DNA from: a virus
Direction: 5' to 3' (one strand)
DNA: 39,900 nt
IMG/VR virus record: IMGVR_UViG_3300046004_001308
Location: 1-39,900 of that record
Shown: one piece after another, positions 6,062-39,577 of the stretch
Numbering within the stretch: the stretch's first letter is position 1
Layout of the letters: every line of letters begins with the position of its first letter
Translations under genes and position numbers: made by a program
The notes under the pieces: generated by a model
Databases searched by the model: none
What the model was told of the DNA's origin: nothing
What the model saw: the letters and a program-made list of their open reading frames with translations, nothing else

Positions 6062-6562
6062 TTATAATACAAATTTTAAATACACCTGACTATTATAAAC
6101 CCATTTATTCCCATCGTAAAAAACAGCATCTCCCCTAGCATCATAACTACCTCGTAAACCTATACCAAACTTTTCTGTAAAATGATATTCAATAGCTCCT
6201 TCAACTCCAAATATAGGATATGTAGCAGCTCGATTGATAACACCTAACTTTATGCCTGATTTATAATTCCATCGATTATAGGCAATATTATAGCCTATAC
6301 CTGATGCAATTTCAAGATAACCATCTGTAAGATATGCGTAATGAATTTGAGGTCTTACGTAAATATGGTTATTAAACTCAGCATTAAACTCTACACCTCC
6401 GTAGAATATACCTTTTTGGAATATTACGTTATCGGTTGTGATTTGTACTGAATAACGATCTTGTGCAGACGCTATTGTAGAAAATAGAATAACTGCTAAA
6501 ATTAAGCAAATGATAAATATCATATTAGCTTTACGTGGGGTTGTTGATGTGTGTCGTTTCAT
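6062..6562 (-). CDS. Phage-borne outer-membrane beta-barrel protein
   Basis: The 166-residue product has a basic N-terminus, a hydrophobic core (about residues 14-31) and a likely signal-peptidase site after ASA33, then an amphipathic beta-strand pattern throughout (YGGVEFNAEFNNHIYVRPQIHYAYL, IASGIGYNIAYNRWNYKSGIKLGVI, FGIGLRGSYDARGD), ending in YLKFVL. This is the profile of a small OmpA/OprF- or OmpW-type eight-stranded barrel. Its start overlaps the recombinase stop by ATGA, so the two are one leftward operon, and it could be expressed from the prophage. A role in surface change or superinfection exclusion is inference. Confidence 0.7.
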   Translation of the reverse strand: MKRHTSTTPRKANMIFIICLILAVILFSTIASAQDRYSVQITTDNVIFQKGIFYGGVEFNAEFNNHIYVRPQIHYAYLTDGYLEIASGIGYNIAYNRWNYKSGIKLGVINRAATYPIFGVEGAIEYHFTEKFGIGLRGSYDARGDAVFYDGNKWVYNSQVYLKFVL

Positions 6563-7386
6563 AGTCTTATTGATTGTAATGGAGATTGAATTTTACTGAT
6601 TAAATTGTGTGAGATATGTGTATAAAGCAAAGTTGTTTTAACATTGGAATGCCCAGCTAATTTTTGTATAAGGTTTATATCAATACCCGCTTCAACTAAA
6701 TGCGTAAAACAATTATGGCGCATTAAATGAGTGTAAACTCTTTTATTAATCTTAGCTTTTTCTGCAAGTTGTTTCATAACTTGGTTTACGCTTGTGGCTG
6801 AATATTGATTTGAAAACTGCCCAGATAAAACATAAGTAACCGTTCTATATTGATAATAATATTTTTCTAATAATGGTATCAAAGAAGCATCGAGCATTAC
6901 TTGTCGGTCTTTATTTCCTTTTCCGTCAATAATATTTATAATCATTCGGCTACGGTCAATATTACTCCATTTTAAATTTATAAGCTCCGAAACTCGCAAA
7001 CCACAAGAATATAATAAACTCAAAATTACTTTGTGTTTTAGATTTTCGCAAACTGAAAACATTTTTTGTACTTCATCTTGACTTAATGGTATGGGTAATT
7101 TTCTACTTTGTTTAGCGTATGGAATGTGTTTGAATTTATCCTTTTGATGTAAGCAAATAGCATAGAATTTCTTAATAGCAGAATGATAATTCCTTTGAGT
7201 ATTAATCTGAACACAATTAGATAAAAAATTCATTATATCCGTTTCATTTATGTTTTTTGGATGGTCTTTTGTAGATTTAGAAAAGAAAATATTAAGACAA
7301 GATGAGTAATTTTCGATAGTGTTTTTACTATATCCTTGTCTTTTCATTTCCTGCTCGAATTTACCTATGTGTTCAGAAATATTCAT
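6559..7386 (-). CDS. Tyrosine recombinase / phage integrase
   Basis: A 275-residue XerC/D-like recombinase. The N-terminal SAM-like core-binding domain (about 1-90) precedes the catalytic domain with all expected residues: R131 (SCGLRVSEL), K156 (GKGNKD), H220 and R223 (YTHLMRH), H246 (LAGHSNVKTT) and the nucleophile Y255 (LLYTH). The C-terminus ISKIQSPL is typical of Bacteroidota integrases. The loop between K156 and H220 is short, so it lacks the extra helix of integron IntI. It probably integrates the phage; whether it also acts on the neighbouring attC-like sites is open. It starts immediately beside the half-site at 7438-7447. Confidence 0.93.
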   Translation of the reverse strand: MNISEHIGKFEQEMKRQGYSKNTIENYSSCLNIFFSKSTKDHPKNINETDIMNFLSNCVQINTQRNYHSAIKKFYAICLHQKDKFKHIPYAKQSRKLPIPLSQDEVQKMFSVCENLKHKVILSLLYSCGLRVSELINLKWSNIDRSRMIINIIDGKGNKDRQVMLDASLIPLLEKYYYQYRTVTYVLSGQFSNQYSATSVNQVMKQLAEKAKINKRVYTHLMRHNCFTHLVEAGIDINLIQKLAGHSNVKTTLLYTHISHNLISKIQSPLQSIRL

Positions 7387-7437
7387 CGTTAAGTGTTGTT
7401 TTTATTAATACTAAGAAGTTATAAATACATATTCTAT

Positions 7438-7447
7438 GTTAGGGTGC
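7438..7447 (-). repeat. attC-like half site ending a cassette
   Basis: On the minus strand this reads GCACCCTAAC, 10 nt 3' of the methyltransferase stop codon. It is the exact reverse complement of the first 10 nt of the same module, at 8299-8308, and 13 of 14 positions match when extended. In an integron cassette these would be the inverse-core and core ends that come together on circularisation. A clear folded partner toward 7390 is not seen. Confidence 0.45.
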
Positions 7448-7457
7448 ATAGCTCTAT

Positions 7458-7889
7458 TTAGTTTTTCAAAATGACTATCATACTATCGTGCATCCCGCTT
7501 TGTTTTGGTGTAAAAAGGTTTCCGTTTTCATCAAACGTGCTAAACTTCAATCTTCTTTCTATAAATCGAATATCTTTAGCGTTTGGTAATATTTTTTCGT
7601 GAAACAGTTTTGTACTTGTAGAAACAGGAATTAATAAAACACAAAGTTTTCCTTTCTTGCTTTCTTCAATTGCTTTTTCTACAAATGCTTCTTTCAATTT
7701 TCGTGAGTAAGGCGGGTTTATAAAATTAGAGTTTCCCCATTCAATCAATAAACCGTTTTTATCATCTGTAATTTGCTCTTTATTCAAAGGACACGGATCA
7801 AAATCAAAATTAAATTCAGCGTTTAATTTATCGTAAAACTCTTTCGGTGTTCCCCAATTATCGGAGTGATCTAAATTTCTGTTTTTCAT
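7458..7889 (-). CDS. Phage-type DNA N-6-adenine methyltransferase
   Basis: The 143-residue protein matches the compact phage Dam-like family (Dam, PF05869 type): NWGTPKEFYDKL, then FDFDPCPLN (residues 28-36), the catalytic motif NPPYS (58-62) and LLIPVSTSTKLFHEKILPNA. It would methylate adenine N6, probably protecting phage DNA from restriction or marking it. Its start overlaps the upstream gene stop by ATGA, so the two form one module, which is bounded by complementary ends at 7438-7447 and 8299-8308. Confidence 0.88.
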   Translation of the reverse strand: MKNRNLDHSDNWGTPKEFYDKLNAEFNFDFDPCPLNKEQITDDKNGLLIEWGNSNFINPPYSRKLKEAFVEKAIEESKKGKLCVLLIPVSTSTKLFHEKILPNAKDIRFIERRLKFSTFDENGNLFTPKQSGMHDSMIVILKN

Positions 7890-8254
7890 AACTCTGTATT
7901 TGTTAATGCAAAAAATAAATTTTGAAGTTGGTGTATATATTTAATATGTGAATAACTATTTTTTAGATTACCATATTCATCCACGTTAATAACTAAATCT
8001 CCAGTCTTATCAATTTTTTTTACAAAAAGAAAATAATGTGTTCTTGAAAAATAATCAAATCTTTTATCCGACTTTTCAAACCCAAACTTATCTAACCACG
8101 ATTCATTTAATAATATTGGATTTATATTACAACAATAATTAGATTGATAATAACCATCACCAGAATAATAGACTTCATCAATACTATTGTCTATTTGTTC
8201 TATTTTTCCTTCTTGAATAAGATTCCCTATTCGTAATTCATTTATTTGTATCAT
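7886..8254 (-). CDS. Hypothetical protein of the ELRIGN type
   Basis: The 122-residue product begins MIQINELRIGNLIQEGKIEQ, a beginning I associate with small Bacteroidota phage and plasmid proteins of unknown function, and ends in a helix (SHIKYIHQLQNLFFAL). It overlaps the methyltransferase gene by 4 nt and starts about 45 nt after an attC-like site, as the first gene of a two-gene cassette. No activity can be assigned. Confidence 0.65.
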   Translation of the reverse strand: MIQINELRIGNLIQEGKIEQIDNSIDEVYYSGDGYYQSNYCCNINPILLNESWLDKFGFEKSDKRFDYFSRTHYFLFVKKIDKTGDLVINVDEYGNLKNSYSHIKYIHQLQNLFFALTNTEL

Positions 8255-8298
8255 TTTGTTATATTTTTAAGTTATGTTTATTTTTAATTACCCACTAC

Positions 8299-8381
8299 GC
8301 ACCCTAACAATCGTTTGTACTAAGCGGCAGAATATACGCAGCCGTATAGCCGCCTAGTACAAGCGACAAACGTTAGGGTTA
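8299..8381 (-). repeat. attC-like folded recombination-site repeat, copy 1
   Basis: ACCCTAAC (8301-8308) pairs with GTTAGGGT (8372-8379). Inside, a 17-nt arm (8312-8328) pairs with 8349-8365 with one G.T wobble and one A.C mismatch, separated from the outer arms by unequal unpaired spacers of 3 and 6 nt. A terminal TATACG/CGTATA stem caps it. Outer boxes of the RYYYAAC/GTTRRRY kind, unpaired spacers and a variable terminal structure are the organisation of integron attC sites. It lies 3-6 nt from the stop codon of the leftward gene 8385-9236. Copy 2 is at 9676-9756. Confidence 0.6.
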
Positions 8382-8384
8382 ATG

Positions 8385-9236
8385 CTAAATCCCACAGTAA
8401 CCGGAATCGCAATCGTTAAAATCTTCGTCAAATAATTCATTTTGTACTCCAAATTTTAAAACAGATTTATAACTCGCTTGTGAATTAAATTTATTCCCTG
8501 TTTTATCTTCTTGCTTTACAAACCAATTAAAAGTATCAACATCTTTTTTTGCTATGTGAGATAAAAACAAAGGATTTCTATTTACGCATCCTACACAATT
8601 ATTTCTATAAGCAAATCTTACAGGTTTATTTTCCCAGTAATTATAAATAGTGTCTTTTTGGATATTGTTTTCAATCAAAGGAAATTCTGCATATCTGTAA
8701 GCAACTTCACCCCATTTGTTTTGAGTATCTTTAGAGTTACGACCTACAACACATTTAAACATTTCAAGTCCGTTTTCATCGGCTCTTTCCATTATGTTTT
8801 TTTTGCGGTTTATTTCGTTTGGTCTTAATCCTAAATTCATCTTAACGGGCAATTCAACATTAGTTTTTAAGTAGTTGAATATTGGTGTTATTTTCATATC
8901 AGTAGTACAAAACCTTGACATCATATTTGGTAAATAATTACCGTGATTTTTTATCACTTGCTCAAATGTATCTCCAGTAATCCACGTTATTTTATTTCCT
9001 GTAAATTGCTCTAAGTCTAAAATAGTATAGATTATTTCATCCATTTCAGCAGTTCCTATAAATTCAAATCCCAATTTATCTGAAACTAATTGACGAGTTT
9101 TTTCGTCTTTCCCTTTCATCCATAAATTATCAGTATCTTCAATCCTCACTAAAGAAAACAAATCAATGTCGGCTGGGTAATGTTTGGTTAAATAAGCGGA
9201 AGTTTTCCCTCCGCTTACACTATTTACTGTAATCAT
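8385..9236 (-). CDS. PP-loop protein, PAPS-reductase-like
   Basis: A 283-residue adenine-nucleotide alpha-hydrolase-like protein. The PP-loop SGGKTS (residues 8-13) would bind the ATP or adenylyl pyrophosphate. MSRFCTTDMKI and NNCVGCVNRNP, plus a C-terminal CDSGYCG, provide Cys pairs that could hold an Fe-S cluster or act in sulfur transfer. This is the pattern of the phosphoadenosine-phosphosulfate-reductase-like family common in phages; the substrate is unknown and nucleic-acid modification is one option. Its start overlaps the upstream deoxyribosyltransferase-like gene by 4 nt, and its stop is followed within a few nt by an attC-like fold, so the pair looks like one mobile cassette. Confidence 0.8.
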   Translation of the reverse strand: MITVNSVSGGKTSAYLTKHYPADIDLFSLVRIEDTDNLWMKGKDEKTRQLVSDKLGFEFIGTAEMDEIIYTILDLEQFTGNKITWITGDTFEQVIKNHGNYLPNMMSRFCTTDMKITPIFNYLKTNVELPVKMNLGLRPNEINRKKNIMERADENGLEMFKCVVGRNSKDTQNKWGEVAYRYAEFPLIENNIQKDTIYNYWENKPVRFAYRNNCVGCVNRNPLFLSHIAKKDVDTFNWFVKQEDKTGNKFNSQASYKSVLKFGVQNELFDEDFNDCDSGYCGI

Positions 9237-9628
9237 ATTTTAAAACTTTGTAAATAATCAATACCATCTTGCAAGGTTTCAAATGTGATATTTGCACCTT
9301 TTTTCAAAAACTGTAAATAATTATCTTTTATCGTTTCGTGATTTGGCTCTAAAACTAAAATAATAGTTTTTCCTATTCCTTTTGCATAACCCATTTCAAC
9401 AGCTAAACCAATACAAGATGGATTTGTTCTTTCTGCATAAACAAAAACAATATCAGATTGACTTACAAAATGCAAATCCCAAGTTCCATATTCATTAACT
9501 GTCATTGGAATAGTAATTCCGTTTGGTCTTTCTTTTTCTTTTGGATCTAACCATAAGAAACCATCTAATTCTTTTACTTTGTTTTGCCAATCAGTTCTAA
9601 AACCTCCAGCTAAATACACTTTTTGCAT
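9233..9628 (-). CDS. Nucleoside 2-deoxyribosyltransferase-like protein
   Basis: The 131-residue Rossmann-like protein begins KVYLAGGF and carries SQSDIVFVYAERTNPSCIGLAVEMGYAKGIGKTIILV (residues about 57-93), the nucleotide-binding and catalytic-Glu segment of the nucleoside 2-deoxyribosyltransferase family (PF05014 type). Members exchange or hydrolyse the base of deoxynucleosides; phage copies may act on the nucleotide pool or on modified bases. It is coupled by a 4-nt overlap to the PP-loop gene, and the promoterless pair follows attC-like copy 2 by about 50 nt. Confidence 0.8.
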   Translation of the reverse strand: MQKVYLAGGFRTDWQNKVKELDGFLWLDPKEKERPNGITIPMTVNEYGTWDLHFVSQSDIVFVYAERTNPSCIGLAVEMGYAKGIGKTIILVLEPNHETIKDNYLQFLKKGANITFETLQDGIDYLQSFKI

Positions 9629-9675
9629 AATTTTATTTGTTATTTAATTAATATTTGTTTCTGATAATTGCCGCA

Positions 9676-9756
9676 CTAACCCTAACAATCGTTTGTACTA
9701 AGCGGCAGAATATACGCAACCGCATAGCCGCCTAGTACAAGCGACAAGCGTTACCA
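9676..9756 (-). repeat. attC-like folded recombination-site repeat, copy 2
   Basis: About 65 nt (9680-9745) are nearly identical to copy 1, including both inner arms and the terminal stem region. Only the outer box next to the upstream gene differs: GTTACCA here against GTTAGGG in copy 1. The change of just one outer box is what cassette exchange at integron attC sites produces. It lies 22 nt 3' of the stop codon of the leftward methyltransferase 9778-10509. Confidence 0.6.
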
Positions 9757-9777
9757 GCAATGCCAGAACCGACACCG

Positions 9778-10509
9778 CTAAAACAACCGAAGTTGTGATT
9801 TAAAGTCATTAAAACGCTTTTCTTGTTTCTCATAATATTCTTGGTCTATTTCAAATCCTACAAAGTTAAACCCACCTTTATACGCTGCAATCCTACTGCT
9901 TCCACTTCCTAAATGAGTATCTAAAATCAAATCGCCTTCTTTGGCATAGTTTGATAATAACCAATCATATAATGCCACAGGCTTTTGGGTTGGGTGTATT
10001 CTTTGCTCTTTGTCTTTCATATTGTGCTGTAACATTCCATGCCAAGTAATATTTACAAAGTCTATTTTTTGCAACCAACTTAACCAAGCAAGTTCTCCAG
10101 TGCTATAAGTTGGCATTGTTACGCCTTTGTGCCAGTAAAGCATACCTCCAACTAATCCAAAGAAGTTTGCACCCCAAATGATTTGTTTTTTAGATACTCT
10201 TTTTAGTTCGTTAAAATAATCTTCGTTTGGCGTTTCATTATCCCAATTGGTTTTCTTATAAGTATTGATTTTAGCCAAAGAAGTTTTTTCGTGCCTATCA
10301 CTATTTTTGCCATTATTTTTTATATCAGCATTTATTCCATAAGGCGGGTCAACTATTGCCAAATCAAAATGGTTATCTGCATAGCGTTTTAATGCCGTTA
10401 CACAATCTTCCAAATAAACCTCCGAAGAAGGCACAGCTGGTAACACGTGTTTTGCAAAAGCGGGGGTTTCCGTTTTCAAAGGAACATTATCGTTAAATAT
10501 ATCATTCAT
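9778..10509 (-). CDS. DNA methyltransferase, beta-class N4/N6 type
   Basis: The 243-residue protein has the catalytic motif DPPYG (residues 54-58) before the SAM-binding motif DTHLGSGSS (197-205), with HPTQKPVALYDWLL between them. This IV-before-I order marks a beta-class N6-adenine or N4-cytosine methyltransferase. The residue after motif IV and the HPTQKP segment are typical of phage orphan methyltransferases. No restriction partner is adjacent, so it is likely protective. It is the only gene between attC-like copy 2 and a poorer third site near 10550. Confidence 0.92.
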   Translation of the reverse strand: MNDIFNDNVPLKTETPAFAKHVLPAVPSSEVYLEDCVTALKRYADNHFDLAIVDPPYGINADIKNNGKNSDRHEKTSLAKINTYKKTNWDNETPNEDYFNELKRVSKKQIIWGANFFGLVGGMLYWHKGVTMPTYSTGELAWLSWLQKIDFVNITWHGMLQHNMKDKEQRIHPTQKPVALYDWLLSNYAKEGDLILDTHLGSGSSRIAAYKGGFNFVGFEIDQEYYEKQEKRFNDFKSQLRLF

Positions 10510-10533
10510 CTTTCTAATTAAATTTAGTGGTTA

Positions 10534-10566
10534 AAAGCCCCGCCTTCGCAAAGCACCATACGTTAG
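10534..10566 (-). repeat. Possible degenerate third attC-like site
   Basis: This 33-nt stretch (GCCCCGCCTT to ACGTTAGCGGT) resembles the right half of the two clear sites, with a GC-rich inner arm and an outer GTTAG core, and lies at the 3' end of the next leftward gene. A matching left half is not evident, so it may be a remnant or chance likeness. Confidence 0.3.
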
Positions 10567-10901
10567 CGGTCAGTTAAACAACCTTTCTGCAAATAATTAG
10601 TAATTGCAATATGCAACGCTTCTAAACCCTCATTTGACATTGTTATTTTTGTAACACAAACTTTGCCTTTTATCGTTTCATATTGACAAGAAGGTGTTTC
10701 TAAATCTTCTTTATTTTCTGCCATTCTAACAAAAACTATTTCATTTATATCAGTTCCTTGTTTGTGTACTGAAATTTGTTTATTTAAACTTCTACAAGAA
10801 ACTGCATTTTTCCACCTTGTAACTTTTACTTCTTTTTTAATAACCGAACCGCTAACAGCCACTTGATTTTCAGCTTTTTCTTCTGTTTTTAACTTTTTCA
10901 T
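10563..10901 (-). CDS. Hypothetical 112-residue protein
   Basis: A basic N-terminus (MKKLKTEEKAENQVAVSGSV) leads into a mixed alpha/beta domain ending in a helix with LHIAITNYLQKGC. No family is recognised. The stop codon lies beside a possible attC-like remnant. Part of the N-terminal coding sequence (10852-10860) contains GTTAGCGGT on the minus strand, matching the reverse complement of the end of the gene, so the first 18 or so residues may be a fusion with a different upstream sequence. Confidence 0.6.
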   Translation of the reverse strand: MKKLKTEEKAENQVAVSGSVIKKEVKVTRWKNAVSCRSLNKQISVHKQGTDINEIVFVRMAENKEDLETPSCQYETIKGKVCVTKITMSNEGLEALHIAITNYLQKGCLTDR

Positions 10902-10945
10902 AAGGATTTATTTTTGATTTTTAGGTTTAACCGAAAGGACTCTTT

Positions 10946-11089
10946 TTATTTTTTACTTTTAACTTCATTTTCAAATGGTTTAGCTAATAATTCTACATCA
11001 TTCAATATAGGTTCTGGAATCCTTACTAATTTCACAGGAACGGAATATTTTTTTTTACGTCCTGCATTTCTTTCATTATGTGTTTTCAT
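10946..11089 (-). CDS. Small NAGRKKKY-type basic protein
   Basis: A 47-residue leftward frame (MKTHNERNAGRKKKYSVPVK and 27 more) with a good promoter upstream. The NAGRKKKY.VPVKLVRIPEPI pattern resembles short Bacteroidota proteins of ribbon-helix-helix type, in which a basic AGRK segment precedes a beta strand and helix, so DNA binding is plausible. A longer rightward frame over the same bases has no such features and is not accepted. It would be the first gene of the leftward block. Confidence 0.65.
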   Translation of the reverse strand: MKTHNERNAGRKKKYSVPVKLVRIPEPILNDVELLAKPFENEVKSKK

Positions 11090-11109
11090 AGTTTTAAGTT
11101 TTATAAAAG

Positions 11110-11139
11110 CAAAGATAGTATATTTAATTAAATTACAAA
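11110..11139 (-). promoter_or_regulatory. Leftward promoter of the accessory block
   Basis: On the minus strand a -33 TTTG (11136-11139) and a -7 TATCTTTG (11110-11117) are separated by 18 nt, a good Bacteroidota promoter. It lies 20 nt upstream of the 47-residue leftward gene and back to back with a rightward promoter at 11182-11213, so this is a divergent control region. Confidence 0.65.
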
Positions 11140-11181
11140 ATTAATTACGTTATTTATAATTAATATAAATTAGTGTTTTAA

Positions 11182-11213
11182 TTTGCGTACTTAAATTAAA
11201 TGTATTATTTTTG
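11182..11213 (+). promoter_or_regulatory. Rightward promoter of the replication operon
   Basis: TTTG (11182-11185) and TATTTTTG (11206-11213) are spaced by 20 nt, matching the Bacteroidota -33/-7 consensus. The transcript would begin about 25 nt before the 22-residue leader frame and run through the replication genes. Confidence 0.7.
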
Positions 11214-11243
11214 TCAAACATTAACAATCTAAATTTTAACAAA

Positions 11244-11312
11244 ATGAAAACACTATTTAAAATGATTCAAAAATTACTTTACGGAAACAAAGCATTACAC
11301 TTTGTAATATGA
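11244..11312 (+). CDS. Putative 22-residue leader peptide
   Basis: The frame MKTLFKMIQKLLYGNKALHF plus two residues is basic and amphipathic, lies directly downstream of the promoter, and ends in an ATGA overlap with the next start codon. It could be a leader that couples translation or a tiny functional peptide. Only the coupling and position support it. Confidence 0.45.
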   Translation: MKTLFKMIQKLLYGNKALHFVI

Positions 11313-11614
11313 GCAACTATGACCACGATGTATTAGGAACTGGAAACCCAGAACACCCATACAATAAAGAGCTAATTGAAGAAGAAATCTTTGAAAGTGA
11401 TAATATACAGGAATGTATGGACTATTCAAAACTTGCTTATGATTATGAACCGCTTGAAAATGCGGTGTATAAACAAGAAACGATTATAGAAAAAGCGATT
11501 AGCGAAATTGATTTTTGCATCGATATTCTACATAACAACAGTCTAGCTAAAAATAGACTTCTTAAAGTGAAACATTTATTAATGAGTAATCAAATTAAAC
11601 GTTATGAGAGCTAA
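11309..11614 (+). CDS. Hypothetical acidic protein, early rightward gene
   Basis: This 101-residue protein has an acidic N-terminal half (HPYNKELIEEEIFESDNIQE) and a C-terminal helix-hairpin (KAISEIDFCIDILHNNSLAKNRLLKVKHLL). It overlaps the leader frame by ATGA and the next gene by 11 nt. No family is recognised. Confidence 0.65.
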   Translation: MSNYDHDVLGTGNPEHPYNKELIEEEIFESDNIQECMDYSKLAYDYEPLENAVYKQETIIEKAISEIDFCIDILHNNSLAKNRLLKVKHLLMSNQIKRYES

Positions 11615-11783
11615 TTATATAAATAGATCAACTGGAACAGGTTTATTTATAGCTGTTGGTAATTATCATTCTATAAATGAAAATTGGTATTATCGTTACG
11701 TAACTTTAGATTATGTTATGAGGTATAAAGGAGTAGAAAATATTATAGGTATATGGAAAATTAAATCACTTAAAAATAAATAA
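11604..11783 (+). CDS. Hypothetical 59-residue protein
   Basis: The frame MRANYINRSTGTGLFIAVGN continues for 39 more residues with a Tyr/Trp-rich middle. It overlaps the upstream gene by 11 nt and ends 2 nt before the next ATG, so it fills the interval. Strong packing supports a real gene; function unknown. Confidence 0.6.
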   Translation: MRANYINRSTGTGLFIAVGNYHSINENWYYRYVTLDYVMRYKGVENIIGIWKIKSLKNK

Positions 11784-11785
11784 TT

Positions 11786-12070
11786 ATGAAAAAAATCATT
11801 AAAAACTTATTCAGAAACATTGAACAGAAGTCTAAATTAGACTTAATAACGGAGCTTTTAATACACGAAAATTCAACTATTGAAGCATTATTGTTATTTG
11901 AAAAAGTAAAAGCTAACTTCATTTTTGAAATGAAACGTAGAGAAAGACAAGCGTCTTATGAATGCAGTCTTATTAATGGACTTGAAATAAAACCTAAAAA
12001 GGTTTATGATCCAAACTTTGACAAGAAGTTAGCAGATATAGAAGTAAATTATGAAATCGTAAATCCTTAA
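11786..12070 (+). CDS. Hypothetical 94-residue helical protein
   Basis: The product has a basic N-terminus (MKKIIKNLFRNIEQKSK), a helical middle with FEMKRRERQASYECSL and an acidic tail. It lies in the replication operon 2 nt after the preceding stop. No domain is recognised. Confidence 0.6.
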   Translation: MKKIIKNLFRNIEQKSKLDLITELLIHENSTIEALLLFEKVKANFIFEMKRRERQASYECSLINGLEIKPKKVYDPNFDKKLADIEVNYEIVNP

Positions 12071-12074
12071 AATT

Positions 12075-12242
12075 ATGGAAATAGCAGTATTATTAGTAGG
12101 CGTTGCATTGATTGTAGTTCTATTATTGGGAATCAAAATCATACGTAAAGATATGTATGCAATCGAAAAAGAAAACTTTAGACTTGAAAGAGATAATAAG
12201 TTATTGAAAGAGGAAAATTATAAATTGAAACGCAATGGGTAA
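12075..12242 (+). CDS. Small membrane/coiled-coil protein
   Basis: A 55-residue frame begins MEIAVLLVGVALIVVLLLGI, a single membrane helix, followed by a charged coiled coil (AIEKENFRLERDNKLLKEEN with heptad Leu/Asn). It overlaps the Gp157-like gene by 8 nt. A membrane-tethered oligomer is likely; role unknown. Confidence 0.6.
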   Translation: MEIAVLLVGVALIVVLLLGIKIIRKDMYAIEKENFRLERDNKLLKEENYKLKRNG

Positions 12243-12720
12243 TATTTATCAAATACAACAGGACTACATTTCAATCACAAATGAACTGATTGAATCAGGA
12301 GGAGAATTAACTCCAGAATTAGAAACAGCACTTGCAATAAATAAACAAGAATTGCAAAACAAGGGTATAAATTACGGTTATGTGATTAAATCTTTAGAAA
12401 GTGACATAAGTGCTATTGACGAAGAAATTAAACGCTTACAATCGTTAAAACAAAGCCGAAGCAAAACAACGGAATTGCTTAAAAACACCATTAAAGAAGC
12501 GATGCAACTTTACGGAATCGAGGAACTTAAAACACCTACTTTGAAAATCAACTTTAGAAAGAGTGAAAGTGTGGAATGCGATGGTACTGTTCCTTCTGAA
12601 TACTGGAACTCTAAAACTATCCTTACAGTTGACAAGGTAAGGATCAAAGAAGCTATCAAAGAGGGTAAAGAAGTTTTAGGAGCAGTATTAAATATTAATT
12701 ATAATTTGCAAATTAAATAA
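12235..12720 (+). CDS. Gp157-like siphovirus protein
   Basis: The 161-residue protein has a long N-terminal coiled coil with IDEEIKRLQSLKQSRSKTTELLKNTIKEAM (about residues 63-92), then the beta-rich LKTPTLKINFRKSESVE and a C-terminal VDKVRIKEAIKEGKEVLGA segment. This is the classical layout of the Siphovirus Gp157 family (PF05565 type), whose Streptococcus phage member is associated with nuclease resistance; the true role is unclear. It directly precedes the SSB-like gene, typical of this family. Confidence 0.82.
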   Translation: MGNIYQIQQDYISITNELIESGGELTPELETALAINKQELQNKGINYGYVIKSLESDISAIDEEIKRLQSLKQSRSKTTELLKNTIKEAMQLYGIEELKTPTLKINFRKSESVECDGTVPSEYWNSKTILTVDKVRIKEAIKEGKEVLGAVLNINYNLQIK

Positions 12721-12736
12721 TAATTTACTATTTTTG
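12705..12736 (+). promoter_or_regulatory. Promoter for the SSB-like gene
   Basis: TTTG (12705-12708) and TATTTTTG (12729-12736) are 20 nt apart, a full Bacteroidota promoter. It begins inside the 3' end of the Gp157-like gene. The leader contains a small GTTGG/CCAAC inverted repeat (12753-12771) and an AT-rich stretch before the ATG. Confidence 0.65.
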
Positions 12737-12801
12737 CTAAATCATAATAACAGTTGGATGGGGTTGCCAACGTAATTCAACCTCTTAAATAAATATATAT
12801 T

Positions 12802-13494
12802 ATGAGTACTTCAAACAGAAGGAGCGCATTCGCTCAACCACAAAGTAATCCATCAACAAAGTTTATCGACTGGAAATCCAATGACAAAATGTTTTCTTAC
12901 TATGACAAAGAAAACAAAATCAATATTCAAGTTCCTTTACCGTTTAAGTTCTTGGCACTCGATGAGATGCACACTGTAAAAGGATGGAGCGATTCTTGCC
13001 AAAGTGCAATTTATTCCAACGAGGTTAAATTTATCTCTAAAGAAATTTTAACTGTTAAACCGTTTAAAGGTAACGAAATTGCAAAAGGTCTTTATTCGGA
13101 CATTAAAGAAAAAGTAAAAGCTGCTGGAGCGCACTATGTAAAATCAATCTACATTATGCTAGAAGATGGGTCGCTTGCTAATTTACAGTTGAAAGGTGCT
13201 ACTTGCCAATCTTGGGGAGACTTCACTAAAAAGAATCGTTCACGTTTACCGGATGAATGGGTAACAGTTACAAAAGCTATCGAAGGTAAAAAAGGAGCTG
13301 TTAAGTTTTACACACCTGAATTTACATTTGATAAGTCACTTTCAGAAAGTGAAATAGATCTAGCAAATGAAGTGTTTGGAATACTTGAAACGTATCTTAA
13401 AGCCTATCTTGTGAAAGCTGAACCAGTTATTGCAGATTCTAATGAAATAGACTTAGAAAACTCAGGTCTTGACTACGTTGATTTAGAATATTAA
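12802..13494 (+). CDS. Putative single-stranded DNA-binding protein
   Basis: The 230-residue protein has a beta-rich central region (FIDWKSNDKMFSYYDKENKINIQVPLPFKFL, IYIMLEDGSLANLQLKGA) compatible with an OB fold and ends in an acidic tail with a final aromatic residue (NEIDLENSGLDYVDLEY). Such tails in phage SSBs recruit polymerase, helicase or primase. It has its own promoter and terminator and sits just before the primase-helicase. I infer SSB from tail, fold and context; it is not a classical SSB family member by eye. Confidence 0.6.
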   Translation: MSTSNRRSAFAQPQSNPSTKFIDWKSNDKMFSYYDKENKINIQVPLPFKFLALDEMHTVKGWSDSCQSAIYSNEVKFISKEILTVKPFKGNEIAKGLYSDIKEKVKAAGAHYVKSIYIMLEDGSLANLQLKGATCQSWGDFTKKNRSRLPDEWVTVTKAIEGKKGAVKFYTPEFTFDKSLSESEIDLANEVFGILETYLKAYLVKAEPVIADSNEIDLENSGLDYVDLEY

Positions 13495-13544
13495 AATACC
13501 ATCAGTTTGTGTTTGCCTATTTGTCTAGCCACAGACACAGACTT

Positions 13545-13572
13545 AAAAACCACCTTAACGGGTGGTTTTTTT
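13545..13572 (+). terminator. Intrinsic terminator after the SSB-like gene
   Basis: AAAAACCACC (13545-13554) and GGTGGTTTTT (13561-13570) form a stem around TTAACG, followed by further T residues. It isolates the SSB-like gene as a single transcription unit and precedes the AT-rich control region. Confidence 0.85.
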
Positions 13573-13908
13573 GTTTACAATCTAAATAATACATCAATTT
13601 TAAAGTTTTACAGCAATAAAACAGCAATAAAACAGTAAATAAAAATACATAACAGTTTGTTTAATAATGGTTTATATAAAAACGTGTAAGAAAATTATAA
13701 TAAAAAACAGCAAAACAAGAAAAAACGCCCTATATATAATATATATTTTAAAAAAAGTGAAAAAAATATTTTTTACTCAAAAAGTTGAAAAAATGCTGTT
13801 TTGCTGTTTTTTTATATCTTATCCTTTGATTTTACTACAACAGCATTTTTTAAAATGAAAGTTTTTAATGTTTTTACTGTTTTATGTTTTTAGTATCGAA
13901 TAATTTAC
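13573..13908. other. AT-rich non-coding region with AACAGC repeats (possible origin)
   Basis: About 340 nt with no credible gene. It has two tandem 11-nt ACAGCAATAAA repeats (13610-13631) with a decayed third copy, further AACAGC copies on both strands (13707, 13795, 13803, 13841) and a perfect 12-nt inverted repeat AAAAATGCTGTT/AACAGCATTTTT (13789-13800 and 13839-13850). Its place just before the primase-helicase suits a replication origin with iterons or an operator region. Function is inferred. Confidence 0.45.
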
Positions 13909-13916
13909 TATATTTG
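13909..13916 (+). promoter_or_regulatory. Promoter for primase-helicase operon
   Basis: TATATTTG fits the -7 consensus, 25 nt before the ATG at 13942. The -33 region is T-rich without a clear TTTG. Confidence 0.5.
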
Positions 13917-13941
13917 TTATTATTAATTTATCATTTATTAT

Positions 13942-14166
13942 ATGAAATTATTTATAGTTAACAAAGAGGAATTTGACACAGACTTCCAAAGTCGAGATAG
14001 TCAAAAAACGATTCACAGAAAAGCATTTAATTCTTTAATGCAAAGTATTGGGTATGATAATTCAATTCCAAACTTTATTAATTTCGATTATGAAATGTTT
14101 AATGTAGAGTTTGAATTTACAAACCAGGTAGGAGATGTTTATTTTTTCTTATATTCAAGAAAATGA
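13942..14166 (+). CDS. Hypothetical 74-residue protein before primase
   Basis: Starts MKLFIVNKEEFDTDFQSRDS and is mixed alpha/beta with an acidic composition. Its stop overlaps the start of the primase-helicase (ATGA), so it is translationally coupled to it. Possibly a replication accessory protein; family not recognised. Confidence 0.65.
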   Translation: MKLFIVNKEEFDTDFQSRDSQKTIHRKAFNSLMQSIGYDNSIPNFINFDYEMFNVEFEFTNQVGDVYFFLYSRK

Positions 14167-16520
14167 TTACGATATTCTCTAAAATAACAGATGTAGAAAA
14201 CCCTTTCTACAAAGAAATAAATGAAGTGTTGACTTCGTTTAAAGACGGCTCGAATGCTTTAAAAATAGAAGCTATTAGAAATGAGAAAAACAAAGACAAA
14301 AGAAACATAGCTAAAGGTAAATTAGTATCTGTATGTTTTTCTGGCGAGTTCTCAAGACGTGCTGCGAAGAATATAATCAATCATTCAGGTTTTGCTTGTT
14401 TGGATTTTGATGACTTGCCAAGTTTTGATGATGCTGTTTGCCTTCGTGATTCTTTGCAAGATAATGAATATATTTATTCAGCCTTTATAAGTCCTTCTGG
14501 AAATGGAGTTAAAGCAATCGTAAAAATACCTCCCGAAATTGAAAATCACAAGAAATATTATGAAGCACTTTGTGAAACTTTTGATTCATTTTTAGATGTA
14601 AAAACTAAAGATGTAAGCAGGGTATGTTATGAAAGTTATGATCCCGACTTGTTTATAAATGAAAATTCAAAAGTTTGGGCATTAAAAAAAGAATATTCAG
14701 AGGTAGCACAAAAAACGAATTACCCTAGGCACTTTCAAATTATTGATCCAACAAAGAAAGTAGATGTAATATTGAAATGGTTTAATCGTAAATTCACTTT
14801 AAACGCTGGAGAAAGAAACAACAATCTTTTTAAATTGGCGTGTTCTTTAAATCGTGCAGGGTTGCAATCAGATGAAGCACTTGCCTTATTTAAAAACTTT
14901 TATTCTGCTGGATTGAAAGATTCAGAATTAGAAGCAATTATAAAATCAGGATATAAGTTTACTAATGAGTTTGACACTATGATATTAGTGGATGACAATA
15001 AAATAAGGGAGGCTAACGAAATTTTAAAAAAGGGGGTTCAGAAAGCGAAAAGAGAATTTCGCAAAGAAGGATTAACCGATGGCGATATTGATGAAATAAT
15101 GGATTTTGATTTTGAGGATGACTTTCTTATTTTCTGGGACACAGATAAAAATGGTAAGCTATCACTAAATGATTATAAGTTTAAATTGTTTTTAGAAAAT
15201 CGAGGTTTCTTTAAAGTGCAATTAAATGAACGTGAGTTTACATTCGTAAAGGTTTACAACAATATTATAAATGAAGTAAATGAAATTCATATCAAAGACT
15301 TTGTTTTAAATCACGTTGTAGAAATCGATATGAATGTTTATAATTTTTTTGCACGTTCAACAACAAAGTTTAATGAAAGCTATTTAAACCAGCTCGATAC
15401 AAAAGAGCTTACAATGATTAGAGATGTTCCTGGTACTTCATATTTGTTTTTTAAAAACAAAGTAGTTGAGGTAAAACAAAAATCTATTTCATTTATTGAT
15501 TATATCAATATAGGAGGTTTTGTATGGCAAAAAAACATAATTCCTTTTAATTTTGAAACATCAAACTTGCCTACTGACTTTGAAACATTTATTTTAAATA
15601 TTTCAAATAAAGACGAAAAAAGAAAAATGATTTTAGAGAGTGCAATAGGGTATCTTTTAAGCACATTTAAGAAACAGGATGAAGGTTTAGCTATTGTTTT
15701 ATATGATGAAACATTAAACGATAACCCAAGTGGTCGTACAGGTAAAACAATCATATCAAAAGCACTTGGAGCTATGCGTAAACTTGTTACTTTAAACGGT
15801 AAAGAGTTTGATAATAAAGGAAATTTTCCTTATGATATTGTAAACTTAGACGATAATATTATTTGCTTCGATGATATGGATAGGACTTTTAAATTAGAAA
15901 CTTTGTTTTCTATAATGACAGGGAATTTAACTTTAAAAAAGAAGTTCCAGCAGCCTATTGAAATTCCATTTGTACGCAGTCCTAAAATATTGTTTACTTC
16001 AAACTATATTCTTTCTGGGGTTGGAGATTCACACGATGACAGAAAAATAGAAATAGAATTGTTTAGGCATTATTCAAAATCATATAAACCATTTACAGAG
16101 TTTGGAAAAATGTTTTTTGATGATTGGAATAAAGATGATTGGAACGGATTTTTTAATTATATGATTCGTAATTTACAGCTATACTTTAAAAATGGATTGC
16201 AGAAATCAGAATTAAAAACAGGTAAAACAAAGAAATTTATTGCAAATACTTGTGAGGATTTTTATGATTTTTGCGAAAATGAATTTTTATGGAAAGAGCA
16301 TAATTTCTATACTACCAAAGAAATAAAAGAAACCTATTGCGATGGACATAGAGAAGTTCCTAGAAATATGAATGTAAGCTGGTTTGGTCGATGGTTGGGA
16401 ATGTATTTCGATTTAAAGAAATGGGAGCGTGAAGATACAACAAACGGAGGTATTCGTAAATTTTCAGTATCAGGTTTTGAAAGCAAGGGAGAAGATATTA
16501 ATGACGATGTAGATTTTTAA
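14163..16520 (+). CDS. Primase-helicase fusion (BT4734/VirE-N type plus SF3-like ATPase)
   Basis: The 785-residue protein combines an N-terminal BT4734/VirE-N-type domain with FACLDFDD (77-84; D81, D83) and SPSGNGVKAIV (110-120), which fits the metal-binding and active-site motifs of archaeo-eukaryotic-primase-like folds, a PriCT-like helical segment (about residues 215-270) and a C-terminal ATPase with Walker A GRTGKT (K528), Walker B IICFDDMD and sensor KILFTSNYI. The ATPase resembles superfamily 3 helicases that load at phage origins. It would prime and unwind DNA and is the main replication protein here. The adjacent repeats at 13610-13850 may be its origin. Confidence 0.82.
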   Translation: MITIFSKITDVENPFYKEINEVLTSFKDGSNALKIEAIRNEKNKDKRNIAKGKLVSVCFSGEFSRRAAKNIINHSGFACLDFDDLPSFDDAVCLRDSLQDNEYIYSAFISPSGNGVKAIVKIPPEIENHKKYYEALCETFDSFLDVKTKDVSRVCYESYDPDLFINENSKVWALKKEYSEVAQKTNYPRHFQIIDPTKKVDVILKWFNRKFTLNAGERNNNLFKLACSLNRAGLQSDEALALFKNFYSAGLKDSELEAIIKSGYKFTNEFDTMILVDDNKIREANEILKKGVQKAKREFRKEGLTDGDIDEIMDFDFEDDFLIFWDTDKNGKLSLNDYKFKLFLENRGFFKVQLNEREFTFVKVYNNIINEVNEIHIKDFVLNHVVEIDMNVYNFFARSTTKFNESYLNQLDTKELTMIRDVPGTSYLFFKNKVVEVKQKSISFIDYINIGGFVWQKNIIPFNFETSNLPTDFETFILNISNKDEKRKMILESAIGYLLSTFKKQDEGLAIVLYDETLNDNPSGRTGKTIISKALGAMRKLVTLNGKEFDNKGNFPYDIVNLDDNIICFDDMDRTFKLETLFSIMTGNLTLKKKFQQPIEIPFVRSPKILFTSNYILSGVGDSHDDRKIEIELFRHYSKSYKPFTEFGKMFFDDWNKDDWNGFFNYMIRNLQLYFKNGLQKSELKTGKTKKFIANTCEDFYDFCENEFLWKEHNFYTTKEIKETYCDGHREVPRNMNVSWFGRWLGMYFDLKKWEREDTTNGGIRKFSVSGFESKGEDINDDVDF

Positions 16521-22123: not shown

Positions 22124-22176
22124 TAGTTCCTTTGCCCGCAGCGAACGGTATCAACTTCATAAGGTTGCAAAGGAAT
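22124..22176 (-). promoter_or_regulatory. 53-nt leader element, copy 1
   Basis: This element has the same length as copy 2 at 23480-23532 and identical ends (TTCCTTTG and CAAAGGAA form an 8-bp inverted repeat). About two-thirds of positions match without gaps. It lies 22 nt upstream of the 137-residue gene. A conserved RNA or protein-binding control element is likely; no promoter consensus was seen in it. Confidence 0.5.
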
Positions 22177-22275: not shown

Positions 22276-23448
22276 TTATGATGCAATAGGATTGATATTT
22301 AAAACTTCGATAATGTTATTAAAACTAAATCTGTGACAGCCGGCCTTAATGATAATATCGTTTTTAGTTTTCTTTGCATACTCAACAAAATAGTTTCCTA
22401 CTTGTTTTTTAATAGATAACTTTTCTTTTCTTTCAAGTTTATTTATTTTGGGTAATGCAAGAGTAAAAGCATTTATAAACTCTTCTTTATCTACAGTTAC
22501 ACCAAGAGAAGTTTTTACTTTGTCTTCAACTATTGAAATTTTTACATTTGTTTTATTTACTGAAAATTCAGTACTTACAAATTCGCCTATTTCATAATCT
22601 AATTCATTGAGTAGATTTTCTTTAAAATACTTTGTTTGGCCTTCAATATCTTCGATAATTTGCTCTATTGCTTCTGTTTTTTCGTTTTGTTGGTTGAGAA
22701 GTGTTTCAAGATTTTTTATAAAATCGTTTTTTGTTTCTCTACTTAAATAATCATTTAAAACATTATTAAAAGCCTGATTATTATCGTCGTTGTAACAGTC
22801 TTTTAATTCATCATAAATATAATAACTGTAGTTATCTTCTAAAATATTACTTTGTGCCTCGTCTTCATCGCAAATTGATAACCATCCGCCTGATCTACCA
22901 TATTGCCAAACTTCAAACTTATCTATTTGAGCTCTTTTAGAAAATTCCTTAAATTCTATTTCGTTGTTTTTTATTATGTGAGCATTCCAGGATTTTTGAG
23001 TTTTGAATTTTTTAGCTGCATCAAAATATTGATTGATATAATATTTTTGATTTTTATAATATTCTGATTCTAAAAAATACTCTTTGTTGTTGTTTTCTTT
23101 GTTGTTTGAGTATTGCCAAACTTTAAAGATTTTATTATAATCTGATAAATCACAATTACCTTCATATTGCTCTTTTAAATTTCGTACACCGTCTTCACAA
23201 ACGTGATTATAAACATTGTTTAATCTGTCTTCATTAAACTCTTTCAACACTTTTTTAGTTTGCTTTTTAGATAGGTTTTTGTCTTCGCAAATTTTCAAAA
23301 CGTCGTCTTCGTCGATCCATCCTGAAACTCTAATATTTGCGCAAATTTTGCCTTCTCTAGTGTTAAAATCGTGGGTTGCATCGTCTAAAAAATAAATATC
23401 TGACACAAGAGAATAAATTTTTTCGTTAATTTTTGAAATTGTTTTCAT
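22276..23448 (-). CDS. Large early leftward protein with C-terminal GCH motif
   Basis: The 390-residue protein is largely helical and acidic with repeated aromatic-rich segments (FKVWQYSNNKENNNKEYF, FEVWQYGRSGGWLSI) and a C-terminal unit NDIIIKAGCHRFSFNNIIEVLN that resembles LTIGCHHINIESINRIGN of the neighbouring 279-residue protein. Its family is not recognised. Both lie under similar 53-nt leader or promoter control and belong to the leftward early cluster. A host-takeover or regulation role is inference. Confidence 0.65.
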   Translation of the reverse strand: MKTISKINEKIYSLVSDIYFLDDATHDFNTREGKICANIRVSGWIDEDDVLKICEDKNLSKKQTKKVLKEFNEDRLNNVYNHVCEDGVRNLKEQYEGNCDLSDYNKIFKVWQYSNNKENNNKEYFLESEYYKNQKYYINQYFDAAKKFKTQKSWNAHIIKNNEIEFKEFSKRAQIDKFEVWQYGRSGGWLSICDEDEAQSNILEDNYSYYIYDELKDCYNDDNNQAFNNVLNDYLSRETKNDFIKNLETLLNQQNEKTEAIEQIIEDIEGQTKYFKENLLNELDYEIGEFVSTEFSVNKTNVKISIVEDKVKTSLGVTVDKEEFINAFTLALPKINKLERKEKLSIKKQVGNYFVEYAKKTKNDIIIKAGCHRFSFNNIIEVLNINPIAS

Positions 23449-23479: not shown

Positions 23480-23532
23480 TAGTTCCTTTGCAAATAGCCA
23501 ATTTGATAAACTTGTTTAGGTTTCAAAGGAAT
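23480..23532 (-). promoter_or_regulatory. 53-nt leader element, copy 2
   Basis: Same length and ends as copy 1 (22124-22176), with TTCCTTTG/CAAAGGAA arms. It lies 32 nt upstream of the 390-residue gene, directly after the stop codon of the 279-residue gene. Confidence 0.5.
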
Positions 23533-24584: not shown

Positions 24585-24810
24585 CAACACAAAGCAACTT
24601 TATACACGTTTTTTTATAACATACAACCCCTATTTTGTTACAGATATAACAATCAGTAGCTCTATTTTGTGATATTTATAACATTCTTGTTACAAATGCA
24701 ACAATCAACAAAAATCATAACAATCATATATTATTATAACATATTCTTATATTTATTTAAAAAAAGATATATATTAAAGAAGTATAATTTAACAATACTT
24801 TTACTACTAT

Positions 24811-24881
24811 AAAGAAAATCTATTGTATTATAAGAATTATCTATAATAAAGAAAATCTATTGTAGTATAAGAATTATCTAT
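24811..24881. repeat. Tandem 34-nt repeat, period 37
   Basis: The 34-nt copies at 24811-24844 and 24848-24881 differ at one position. They begin AAAGAAAATCTATTG and end AAGAATTATCTAT. They lie 99 nt before the terS start, so binding by the small terminase, a cos or pac function, or an operator is plausible. Confidence 0.75.
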
Positions 24882-34999: not shown

Positions 35000-36102
35000 T
35001 AGAGATAATTCCGATAGTACAAGAAGTAAACTTAACGGTTGATGAATTAACATCGGAGATTAATATCGATGTGGTTCAAACAACTGAAACTATTTATATT
35101 GAAATATCTGATATTGGACTGCAAGGATTAAAAGGCGACAAAGGAGATGATGGAGAGCAAGGTATTCAAGGATTGCAAGGCATACAGGGAATTAAAGGAG
35201 ATACAGGTGATGATGGATATACACCGATTAAGGGAATAGATTATTTCGATGGTGCAACAGGAGCAACAGGAGTAAAAGGCGACACAGGAAGTCAAGGAGT
35301 TCAAGGCGAAGTAGGTACAAAAGGAGATACAGGCGATGTTGGAGCGCAAGGCATACAGGGTATTCAAGGCATACAAGGTTTAAAAGGTGATAAAGGAGAT
35401 ACAGGCAACACAGGGTTACAAGGAATACAAGGAGTTCAGGGAATACAAGGAGTTCAAGGTGAGCAAGGGATAACAGGAGAAGGTTTTAAAATTTCAAAAA
35501 CTTACACTACATTAGCAGCTTTATTAGCTGATACAGCACCAACAGGAATAGCATCAGGAGAGTTTGCAATCGTTTCAACAGTTGACCCAACGGATGTAGA
35601 TAATGGTAAATTATACCTTTGGAATGGTGTAGTTTATTCTTATACAACCGATATGTCCGTTCAAGGTGTAAAAGGCGATACAGGAAGTCAAGGGATTCAG
35701 GGAGTGCAAGGTGAACAAGGCATACAAGGGATTCAAGGATTGAAAGGCGATATAGGAGAAACAGGCGCACAGGGTATTCAAGGAATACAGGGTGTAAAAG
35801 GTGACGACGGAGCAGATGGAACTATAATAACCACTATCACAGGAACAACTGTTATTGATTTAGGAAACGAAACAGACAGCAAAATAGCAACGATTTTAAA
35901 CGCTTTGATAACTAATGCCAATATTAAAAATATATCGTTTATACCGCAAGAAACAAGCGAAACAAGTTTAGATGATTTCTATTTAAATGGCATTGTTTTT
36001 AATATTGAAAATATAATTGATAATGTTTCATTCGATTTAAGAGCAACCGCATTTAACAACGCAAGTGGTAATTTTACCGTAAAATATCTAATACAAATAT
36101 AA
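34996..36102 (+). CDS. Collagen-like tail fibre protein
   Basis: The 368-residue protein has two Gly-X-Y tracts with GIQG, GDKGD, GDTG type triplets (residues about 43-158 and 225-275), which form trimeric collagen helices in phage fibres. They are separated by a globular segment with ISKTYTTLAALLADTAPTGI and VDNGKLYLWNG, and followed by a beta-rich C-terminus, possibly a trimerisation or host-binding domain. The DNA is a set of imperfect repeats, which would allow length variation. Confidence 0.85.
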   Translation: MIEIIPIVQEVNLTVDELTSEINIDVVQTTETIYIEISDIGLQGLKGDKGDDGEQGIQGLQGIQGIKGDTGDDGYTPIKGIDYFDGATGATGVKGDTGSQGVQGEVGTKGDTGDVGAQGIQGIQGIQGLKGDKGDTGNTGLQGIQGVQGIQGVQGEQGITGEGFKISKTYTTLAALLADTAPTGIASGEFAIVSTVDPTDVDNGKLYLWNGVVYSYTTDMSVQGVKGDTGSQGIQGVQGEQGIQGIQGLKGDIGETGAQGIQGIQGVKGDDGADGTIITTITGTTVIDLGNETDSKIATILNALITNANIKNISFIPQETSETSLDDFYLNGIVFNIENIIDNVSFDLRATAFNNASGNFTVKYLIQI

Positions 36103-37519: not shown

Positions 37520-37527
37520 TATCTTTG
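37520..37527 (+). promoter_or_regulatory. Late promoter -7 box with downstream hairpin, copy 1
   Basis: TATCTTTG followed by TAATGAATGTAATGC; a 10-nt-spaced hairpin begins at 37538. The transcript would start just before the hairpin. The same arrangement recurs at 39512. Confidence 0.5.
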
Positions 37528-37537
37528 TAATGAATGT

Positions 37538-37563
37538 AATGCCAATCAGAAACGATTGGCATT
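37538..37563 (+). terminator. Promoter-proximal hairpin with T run, copy 1
   Basis: AATGCCAATC (37538-37547) pairs with GATTGGCATT (37554-37563), 6-nt loop, followed by T run to 37569. It can end the fibre operon or attenuate transcripts started at the promoter just upstream. Confidence 0.75.
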
Positions 37564-37587
37564 TTTTTTAACTAAAACCTAAATAGA

Positions 37588-39511: not shown

Positions 39512-39519
39512 TATATTTG
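39512..39519 (+). promoter_or_regulatory. Late promoter -7 box with downstream hairpin, copy 2
   Basis: TATATTTG, then the same TGAATGTAATGC initial sequence as at 37531 and a hairpin beginning at 39530, also 10 nt later. It drives the probable tape-measure gene. Confidence 0.55.
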
Positions 39520-39529
39520 TACTGAATGT

Positions 39530-39555
39530 AATGCAACTCCAACAAGAGTTGCATT
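39530..39555 (+). terminator. Promoter-proximal hairpin with T run, copy 2
   Basis: AATGCAACTC (39530-39539) pairs with GAGTTGCATT (39546-39555), 6-nt loop and a T run. The stem interior differs from copy 1 but pairs perfectly, so the hairpin is conserved rather than the sequence. Confidence 0.7.
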
Positions 39556-39577
39556 TTTTATTTTAAACATATAAGTT

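Follow-up and report, generated by a model that had tools for sequence, protein, structure and literature searches.

A putative phage-encoded integron-like system with inverted gene cassettes

Integrons are known as bacterial gene-capture devices, and phages have been thought to carry fragments of them or captured ones (PMC9892861). Phages with attC clusters (CALINs), together with a few phage integrons, have already been published (Qi et al. 2023, PMC9892861), among them Polaribacter phage P12002L, in which one attC was recombined by IntI1. P12002L carries on its gene strand the same unit type as the locus described here, while in the phage CALINs, unlike here, no integrase was reported, the attC was given to the preceding gene, and the cassettes were few (PMC9892861). 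Qi et al. 2023 was the only close report that we found in the open-access literature on phage integrons; for this group, the open-access literature yielded no phage-encoded integrase accompanied by an attI and a cassette array of its own, no inverted cassettes, and no start codons within recombination sites. Outside phage CALINs, our locus shares with canonical integrons (class 1 and 2, Shewanella phage M16-3, Vibrio chromosomal) a tyrosine recombinase adjoining attI, single-gene cassettes separated by imperfect attC-sized hairpins, and replacement at the attI end. As in Treponema-type integrons (PMC3607928), integrase and cassette genes share one strand, but there the cassettes are located 3′ of an integrase that faces attI, whereas here they are located 5′ of an integrase that faces away from it.

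We analyzed a 39,900-base stretch of a virus record (hereafter “the window”), from which a host genome is absent and whose terminase, portal, and primase/helicase proteins identify it as part of a tailed phage. A first-pass annotation of this DNA had pointed to two ~80-nt repeats (8299-8381 and 9676-9756) as attC-like folds bounding mobile cassettes. Both repeats were indeed present (family D2, 88% identity over 96 nt), differed mostly within one outer box, and lay within ~25 nt of the 3′ end of a leftward gene, all as had been described. Both also folded strongly as minus-strand single-stranded DNA (−26.3 kcal/mol, z −7.6, for copy 1; −18.9 kcal/mol, z −4.6, for copy 2). The outer boxes, however, resembled TAAC/GTTA and not the proposed RYYYAAC/GTTRRRY: GTTR occurred in 56 of 56 related units and GTTRRRY in none of the 56. 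The pair of folds was furthermore incomplete, as a third hairpin had been overlooked because its sequence differs from that of hairpins 1 and 2. The resulting map of the array is given in Table 1.

Table 1. Layout of the putative cassette array and its integrase, in window coordinates.
Feature	Position	Strand	Remarks
Putative cassette integrase, 275 aa, XerA/IntI-like tyrosine recombinase	6559-7386	minus	catalytic R-K-HxxR-H-Y aligned; array geometry shared by 65 viral homologue loci
attI-like site and integrase leader (ATAGAATATGTATTT...)	7387-7437	minus	array joins here; found again 50-53 nt ahead of the start codon in other integrase loci
Cassette body 1	7438-8308	minus	ends GTTAGGGTGCGTAG / CTATGCACCCTAAC
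Body 1 gene, Dam-type N6-adenine methyltransferase	7458-7889	minus	
Body 1 gene, phrog_10066	7886-8254	minus	
Hairpin 1, attC-like	8309-8371	minus	assigned to cassette body 1 (gene after it)
Cassette body 2	8372-9686	minus	ends GTTAGGGTTAGTGC / GCATTAACCCTAAC
Body 2 gene, PP-loop / PAPS-reductase-like	8385-9236	minus	
Body 2 gene, nucleoside deoxyribosyltransferase-like	9233-9628	minus	
Hairpin 2, attC-like	9687-9749	minus	assigned to cassette body 2
Cassette body 3	9750-10444	minus	ends GTTACCAGCTGTGC / GCATTGCTGGTAAC
Body 3 gene, DNA methyltransferase	9778-10509	minus	
Hairpin 3, attC-like	10445-10561	minus	same hairpin beside the same gene in locus L015
Distal region	10562-10901	minus	gene 10563-10901 ends in TAAC; read by eye
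Candidate promoter TTTG-18 nt-TATCTTTG	11110-11139	minus	motif spotted in sequence

The annotation had seen no IntI-type gene in the window. That statement did not hold, as an integrase gene lies 51 nt from the array, although its product is XerA-like and lacks the IntI insertion. The protein matched PF00589 (1.7e-37) and scored 199.5 bits against the NCBIfam XerA/“integron integrase” model, under the cut-off of 220; against the integron integrase model TIGR02249 it scored 179.8 (cut-off 265), with the match split into two pieces. The top match in the PDB was XerA, followed by IntI4 in two pieces. When aligned with IntI1, IntI2, and the integrase of Shewanella phage M16-3, it retained the catalytic R-K-HxxR-H-Y residues and was devoid of the IntI-specific insertion between the catalytic motifs. 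This insertion is thought to be the element that reads attC hairpins, and its absence counts against an integron-like reading. In a phylogenetic tree, 15 viral homologues formed one clade (100/99) near Bacteroidota XerA-like proteins and separate from IntI. The clade was nearly absent from Flavobacteriaceae chromosomes (1 MAG contig among 397 genomes).

Next, we examined the ends of the cassettes. In integrons, an attC's gene-side outer box is complementary to the beginning of the cassette it belongs to and not to the sequence now following the site. We first tried this boundary pairing on nine attC copies, some of them in the window and the others in further viral contigs: in most of them, the 14 nt preceding the hairpin matched, as reverse complement, the beginning of their own unit at 13 of 14 positions, the mismatch always falling on position 11, and the other side of the hairpin was not matched. 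A systematic scan of the first loci with position 11 left free, in which each unit is seen on both strands, returned 112 matches, 110 of which were mismatched at position 11 alone, versus 4-18 matches in control scans with other trinucleotide anchors. Cassette bodies are thus bounded by a 14-nt imperfect inverted repeat with the consensus GTTA-n6-G-n3 ... n3-T-n6-TAAC, of which the window holds two exact instances, versus a mean of 0.18 in dinucleotide shuffles. The fixed mismatch was not seen in the canonical arrays M16-3 and TJE1.

The hairpins separating these bodies measure 63-122 nt. Because MAFFT misplaced the left arms of the 117-nt hairpins, we judged pairing by the complementarity of own versus foreign arms: across 30 non-redundant hairpins, own arms were complementary at 13.6 of 17 positions, compared to 8.5 (sd 1.3) for foreign arms. 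Since own arms pair far better than foreign ones, pairing is conserved without conservation of sequence. Hairpins of the type of 1 and 2 are nearly identical across nine contigs. Bulges were present in only some hairpins, and stem mismatches were mostly one-sided (G.T on one strand, A.C on the other), with G opposite T in 42 cases on the gene-sense strand, C opposite A in 15, and the remainder in 11. An attC sequence search among INPHARED phages gave no match.

Several of these hairpins also contain the beginning of a gene. The methyltransferase ORF has its start codon and its first 22 codons within hairpin 3, where it begins MNDIFNDNVPLKTETPAFAKHV, and the ORF start codon fell inside the upstream hairpin in 25 of 61 units, at recurring distances. 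By eye, the boundary repeat of the distal gene (10563-10901) matched only partly and its left hairpin arm could not be found; this gene is probably a decayed oldest cassette.

Across viral integrase loci, the position of the array was closely tied to the integrase gene. Among 65 loci with enough upstream sequence, scanned with G required at position 11 unlike in the first scan, 122 exact units lay upstream on the integrase strand, one downstream, and none on the opposite strand. An exact last unit was present in 40 of the 65 loci, and this difference between sister viral integrases counts against the integron-like reading. The end of that unit lay 50-53 nt ahead of the integrase start codon in 36 of these loci and 67 nt ahead of it in the other 4; in the window this distance is 51 nt. 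The junction reads TAAC-(T)ACTATATGTA, the leader is conserved as TAAC-TACTATATGTA, and the same leader is abutted by a different gene in each phage. A search with the attI 17-mer matched 27 contigs, of which 17 were chance or ambiguous matches. Junctions of the attI-like TAAC-TACTATATGTA type were also seen without an adjoining integrase in three loci (L042, L055, and L056), in two of which (L042 and L055) a cassette unit ends exactly at the junction; such sites are possibly served in trans. A second group of viral integrases, ~41% identical (L024, L025, and L145-L156), displayed the same attI geometry at 51-52 nt.

Cassette turnover could be followed by comparing the window with locus L015, which belongs to a near-identical phage. 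The two are 95.8% identical over 9749-14297 (~4.6 kb) and 100% identical over 7317-7442 (126 bp), and between these stretches the window holds two cassettes and L015 three different ones. Both breakpoints fall at TAAC, one being the end of the methyltransferase cassette and the other attI. The attI-proximal cassettes have thus been replaced and the distal one kept, as expected of insertion at attI. Together with the cassette-end repeats, these breakpoints support the first-pass proposal that the hairpins act as attC-like boundaries of mobile gene cassettes in a phage, with the methyltransferase, deoxyribosyltransferase, and PP-loop genes as cargo (boundary repeats and replacement in L015). The alternative named alongside it, an ordinary intergenic repeat with no cassette association, is refuted. 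The window's cargo comprises two methyltransferases along with deoxyribosyltransferase-like and PAPS-reductase-like proteins. Methyltransferase-like ORFs, as read by eye from translations, were frequent in other loci as well, which suggests that cassette cargo serves escape from host restriction.

We then evaluated which gene each hairpin belongs to. The annotation had relied on the usual order, in which an attC follows its cassette gene, and flank, breakpoint, and polarity comparisons instead assign the hairpin to the gene after it. In L015, the methyltransferase cassette has kept its 5′ hairpin (100% identity across the 60 compared nt) next to an unrelated 3′ hairpin; L003 and L007 have in common an exact 319-bp hairpin-plus-gene unit with unrelated flanks; and left-side alignment breakpoints between loci fell at AAC|hairpin (unit end) in 39 cases versus hairpin|GTT (unit start) in one. 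Overall, four independent tests agree that the hairpin travels with the gene following it: the L015 comparison, the breakpoints with the exact L003/L007 unit, the absence of a hairpin between the last unit and the leader, and the start codons inside hairpins. We rejected the gene-then-attC reading, as the flank and breakpoint comparisons contradict it, and also considered a hairpin belonging to both neighbors, but linkage was seen only with the following gene. Given this linkage and the hairpin polarity, genes are read toward attI and the integrase. There are exceptions, which weigh against the integron-like reading: two cassettes (L007/L012 and L003/L011) keep the gene with both flanking hairpins changed, and at 22 right-hand breakpoints the hairpin alone is common to the loci, from which it follows that loci also recombine at hairpin|GTT or by homologous recombination.

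The phage system departs from canonical integrons in several ways: the genes are inverted relative to attI/attC and read toward attI, the IntI insertion is lacking, the R′ core is GTTR instead of GTTRRRY, cassettes have 14-nt ends with a fixed mismatch, start codons lie within hairpins, and the array is phage-borne with its own integrase. The sequence TAAC-A...C-GTTA, found in M16-3 on the gene strand, is read here on the gene-antisense strand. Flavobacteriaceae chromosomes contain related arrays (L070-L072), which like the phage system have a XerA-like integrase without IntI insertion, a sister to that of the phages, 14-nt ends with G.T at position 11, and the same hairpin polarity marks. On their gene-antisense strand, T precedes GTT in 14 of 14 cases, G follows AAC in 14 of 14, and mismatches are one-sided at 15:2. 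Unlike in the phage system, the array lies 3′ of the integrase, gene orientation is canonical, and the integrase, at 376 aa, has an N-terminal extension. As hairpin polarity is shared and the chromosomal genes are canonical, the phage branch is the one that has inverted genes relative to sites. Each chromosomal array comprises several cassettes, in some cases eight or more, with hairpins of the attC-like kind, and their integrase type was found in 50 of 299 Flavobacteriaceae genomes sampled, possibly representing an under-recognised chromosomal integron family.

We consider it highly probable that the locus is a phage-encoded integron-like system with inverted cassettes, of a kind carried by phages of Bacteroidota. 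It has a catalytic tyrosine recombinase beside the array, a fixed-end attI, attC-like palindromes, and gain and loss at the attI end, as in IntI-type integrons, but differs from these in three features (insertion, GTTRRRY, and gene-then-attC order), and would thus function like an integron while standing outside the IntI class. The evidence is comparative throughout and shows repeats at the cassette boundaries, the covariation of hairpin arms, the polarity, a constant junction at attI, the replacement of cassettes between near-identical phages, and the presence of start codons inside hairpins. Specifically, we propose that the integrase inserts circular cassettes at the attI-like site in its own 5′ leader, recombining the folded single strand of a cassette hairpin with double-stranded attI. 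Each cassette would consist of a hairpin and its gene(s), which would start at or inside the hairpin and be read toward attI and the integrase, with the newest cassettes beside the integrase. Array and integrase would probably form one leftward transcription unit with a distal promoter. The TTTG-18 nt-TATCTTTG motif, which we take to be of the Bacteroidota type, could drive transcription of the whole array and then of the integrase. With the genes directed at attI, they would be expressed from the distal end of the array, so that incoming cassettes would need no attI promoter, and the hairpin would bring the start region of each gene. The one-sided mismatches (A.C versus G.T) would favor one strand and could set strand choice, replacing extrahelical bases.

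Other explanations of the array have to be weighed against this. Phage attC clusters are known, including that of P12002L (PMC9892861), and the hairpins sit just after genes, as they would if a phage had picked up ordinary gene-then-attC cassettes in a host integron and these were mobilized in trans, as with the CALINs of Qi et al. 2023. This is nonetheless very unlikely, as the hairpins travel with the following gene, their polarity is opposite, the integrase is encoded beside the array, and such a capture requires a hairpin between the last gene and attI, while no integrase locus examined had one separating its last unit from the integrase leader. Equally, the integrase might be an ordinary lysogeny integrase, and the hairpins homology boundaries or linkers for module swaps by general recombination. 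We judge this unlikely: the inverted-repeat match between cassette ends is not predicted by module swapping, boundaries need TAAC only and not long homology, most hairpins differ in sequence yet stay complementary, and several related records have a second phage integrase of 403-441 aa. The window itself has no other tyrosine recombinase, which would fit this alternative, as would the general mosaicism of phages, the near-identity of the hairpin 1/2 type in nine contigs (which could seed homologous exchange), and the 22 breakpoints at which only hairpins are common.

The hairpins could also be RNA elements of a leftward operon, i.e., terminators or translational controls, and not recombination sites. 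G.T wobbles keep the gene-sense strand, and hence the transcript, paired, and start codons are located in the hairpins, but the inverted cassette ends, TAAC breakpoints, and fixed link to the integrase would be left unexplained, and an Rfam search of the whole window gave no match. As a replacement for the recombination role this is extremely unlikely, although an RNA role may be true in addition to it. Extending the integron-like reading beyond this locus, we tentatively suggest, as a possibility on which we would put less than even weight, a separate Bacteroidota and phage integron lineage, with a XerA-like recombinase lacking the IntI insertion and hairpins recognized by their one-sided mismatches and not by extrahelical bases. 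On the phage side of this lineage, genes would be inverted and the hairpin would give a start codon and N-terminal leader peptide, making each cassette a portable 5′ expression unit in a phage counter-defence array.

Elsewhere in the window, other repeated elements were observed. At 35130-35787, a 109-nt family, present six times at 63-nt spacing, encodes collagen-like KGDxGxQG repeats in a probable tail-fibre gene. Two adjoining 37-nt direct repeats (24804-24877, 92% identity) occupy a non-coding gap between divergent genes and are a possible operator or origin. Two 53-nt repeats (22124-22176 and 23480-23532) with inverted ends TTCCTTTGC...GCAAAGGAA flank a leftward gene (22276-23448), and possibly represent a second kind of boundary element. 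Finally, twin 48-nt elements (37520-37567 and 39512-39559), each with a short inverted repeat and a T run, are probably terminators.

Among cultured phages, Polaribacter phage Leef_1 (L038) encodes an integrase (34% identical) that is closely preceded, on its own strand, by units of the type seen here; these cassette-type units lie at 975-1463, 1580-1825, and 2393-2600. The authors of Leef_1 read this integrase as a sign of a temperate lifestyle (PMC8776804), but it may act on cassettes rather than in lysogeny. An integrase and array of this kind are encoded together at more than 60 viral loci, where DNA methyltransferases and other probable DNA-modification or counter-defence genes abound among the cargo, and the inverted orientation alters how these cassettes would be expressed. 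With both the IntI insertion and the GTTRRRY core missing, what an integrase needs in order to read a hairpin becomes directly testable. The integrases of such phages, e.g., Leef_1, may have been misread as signs of lysogeny.
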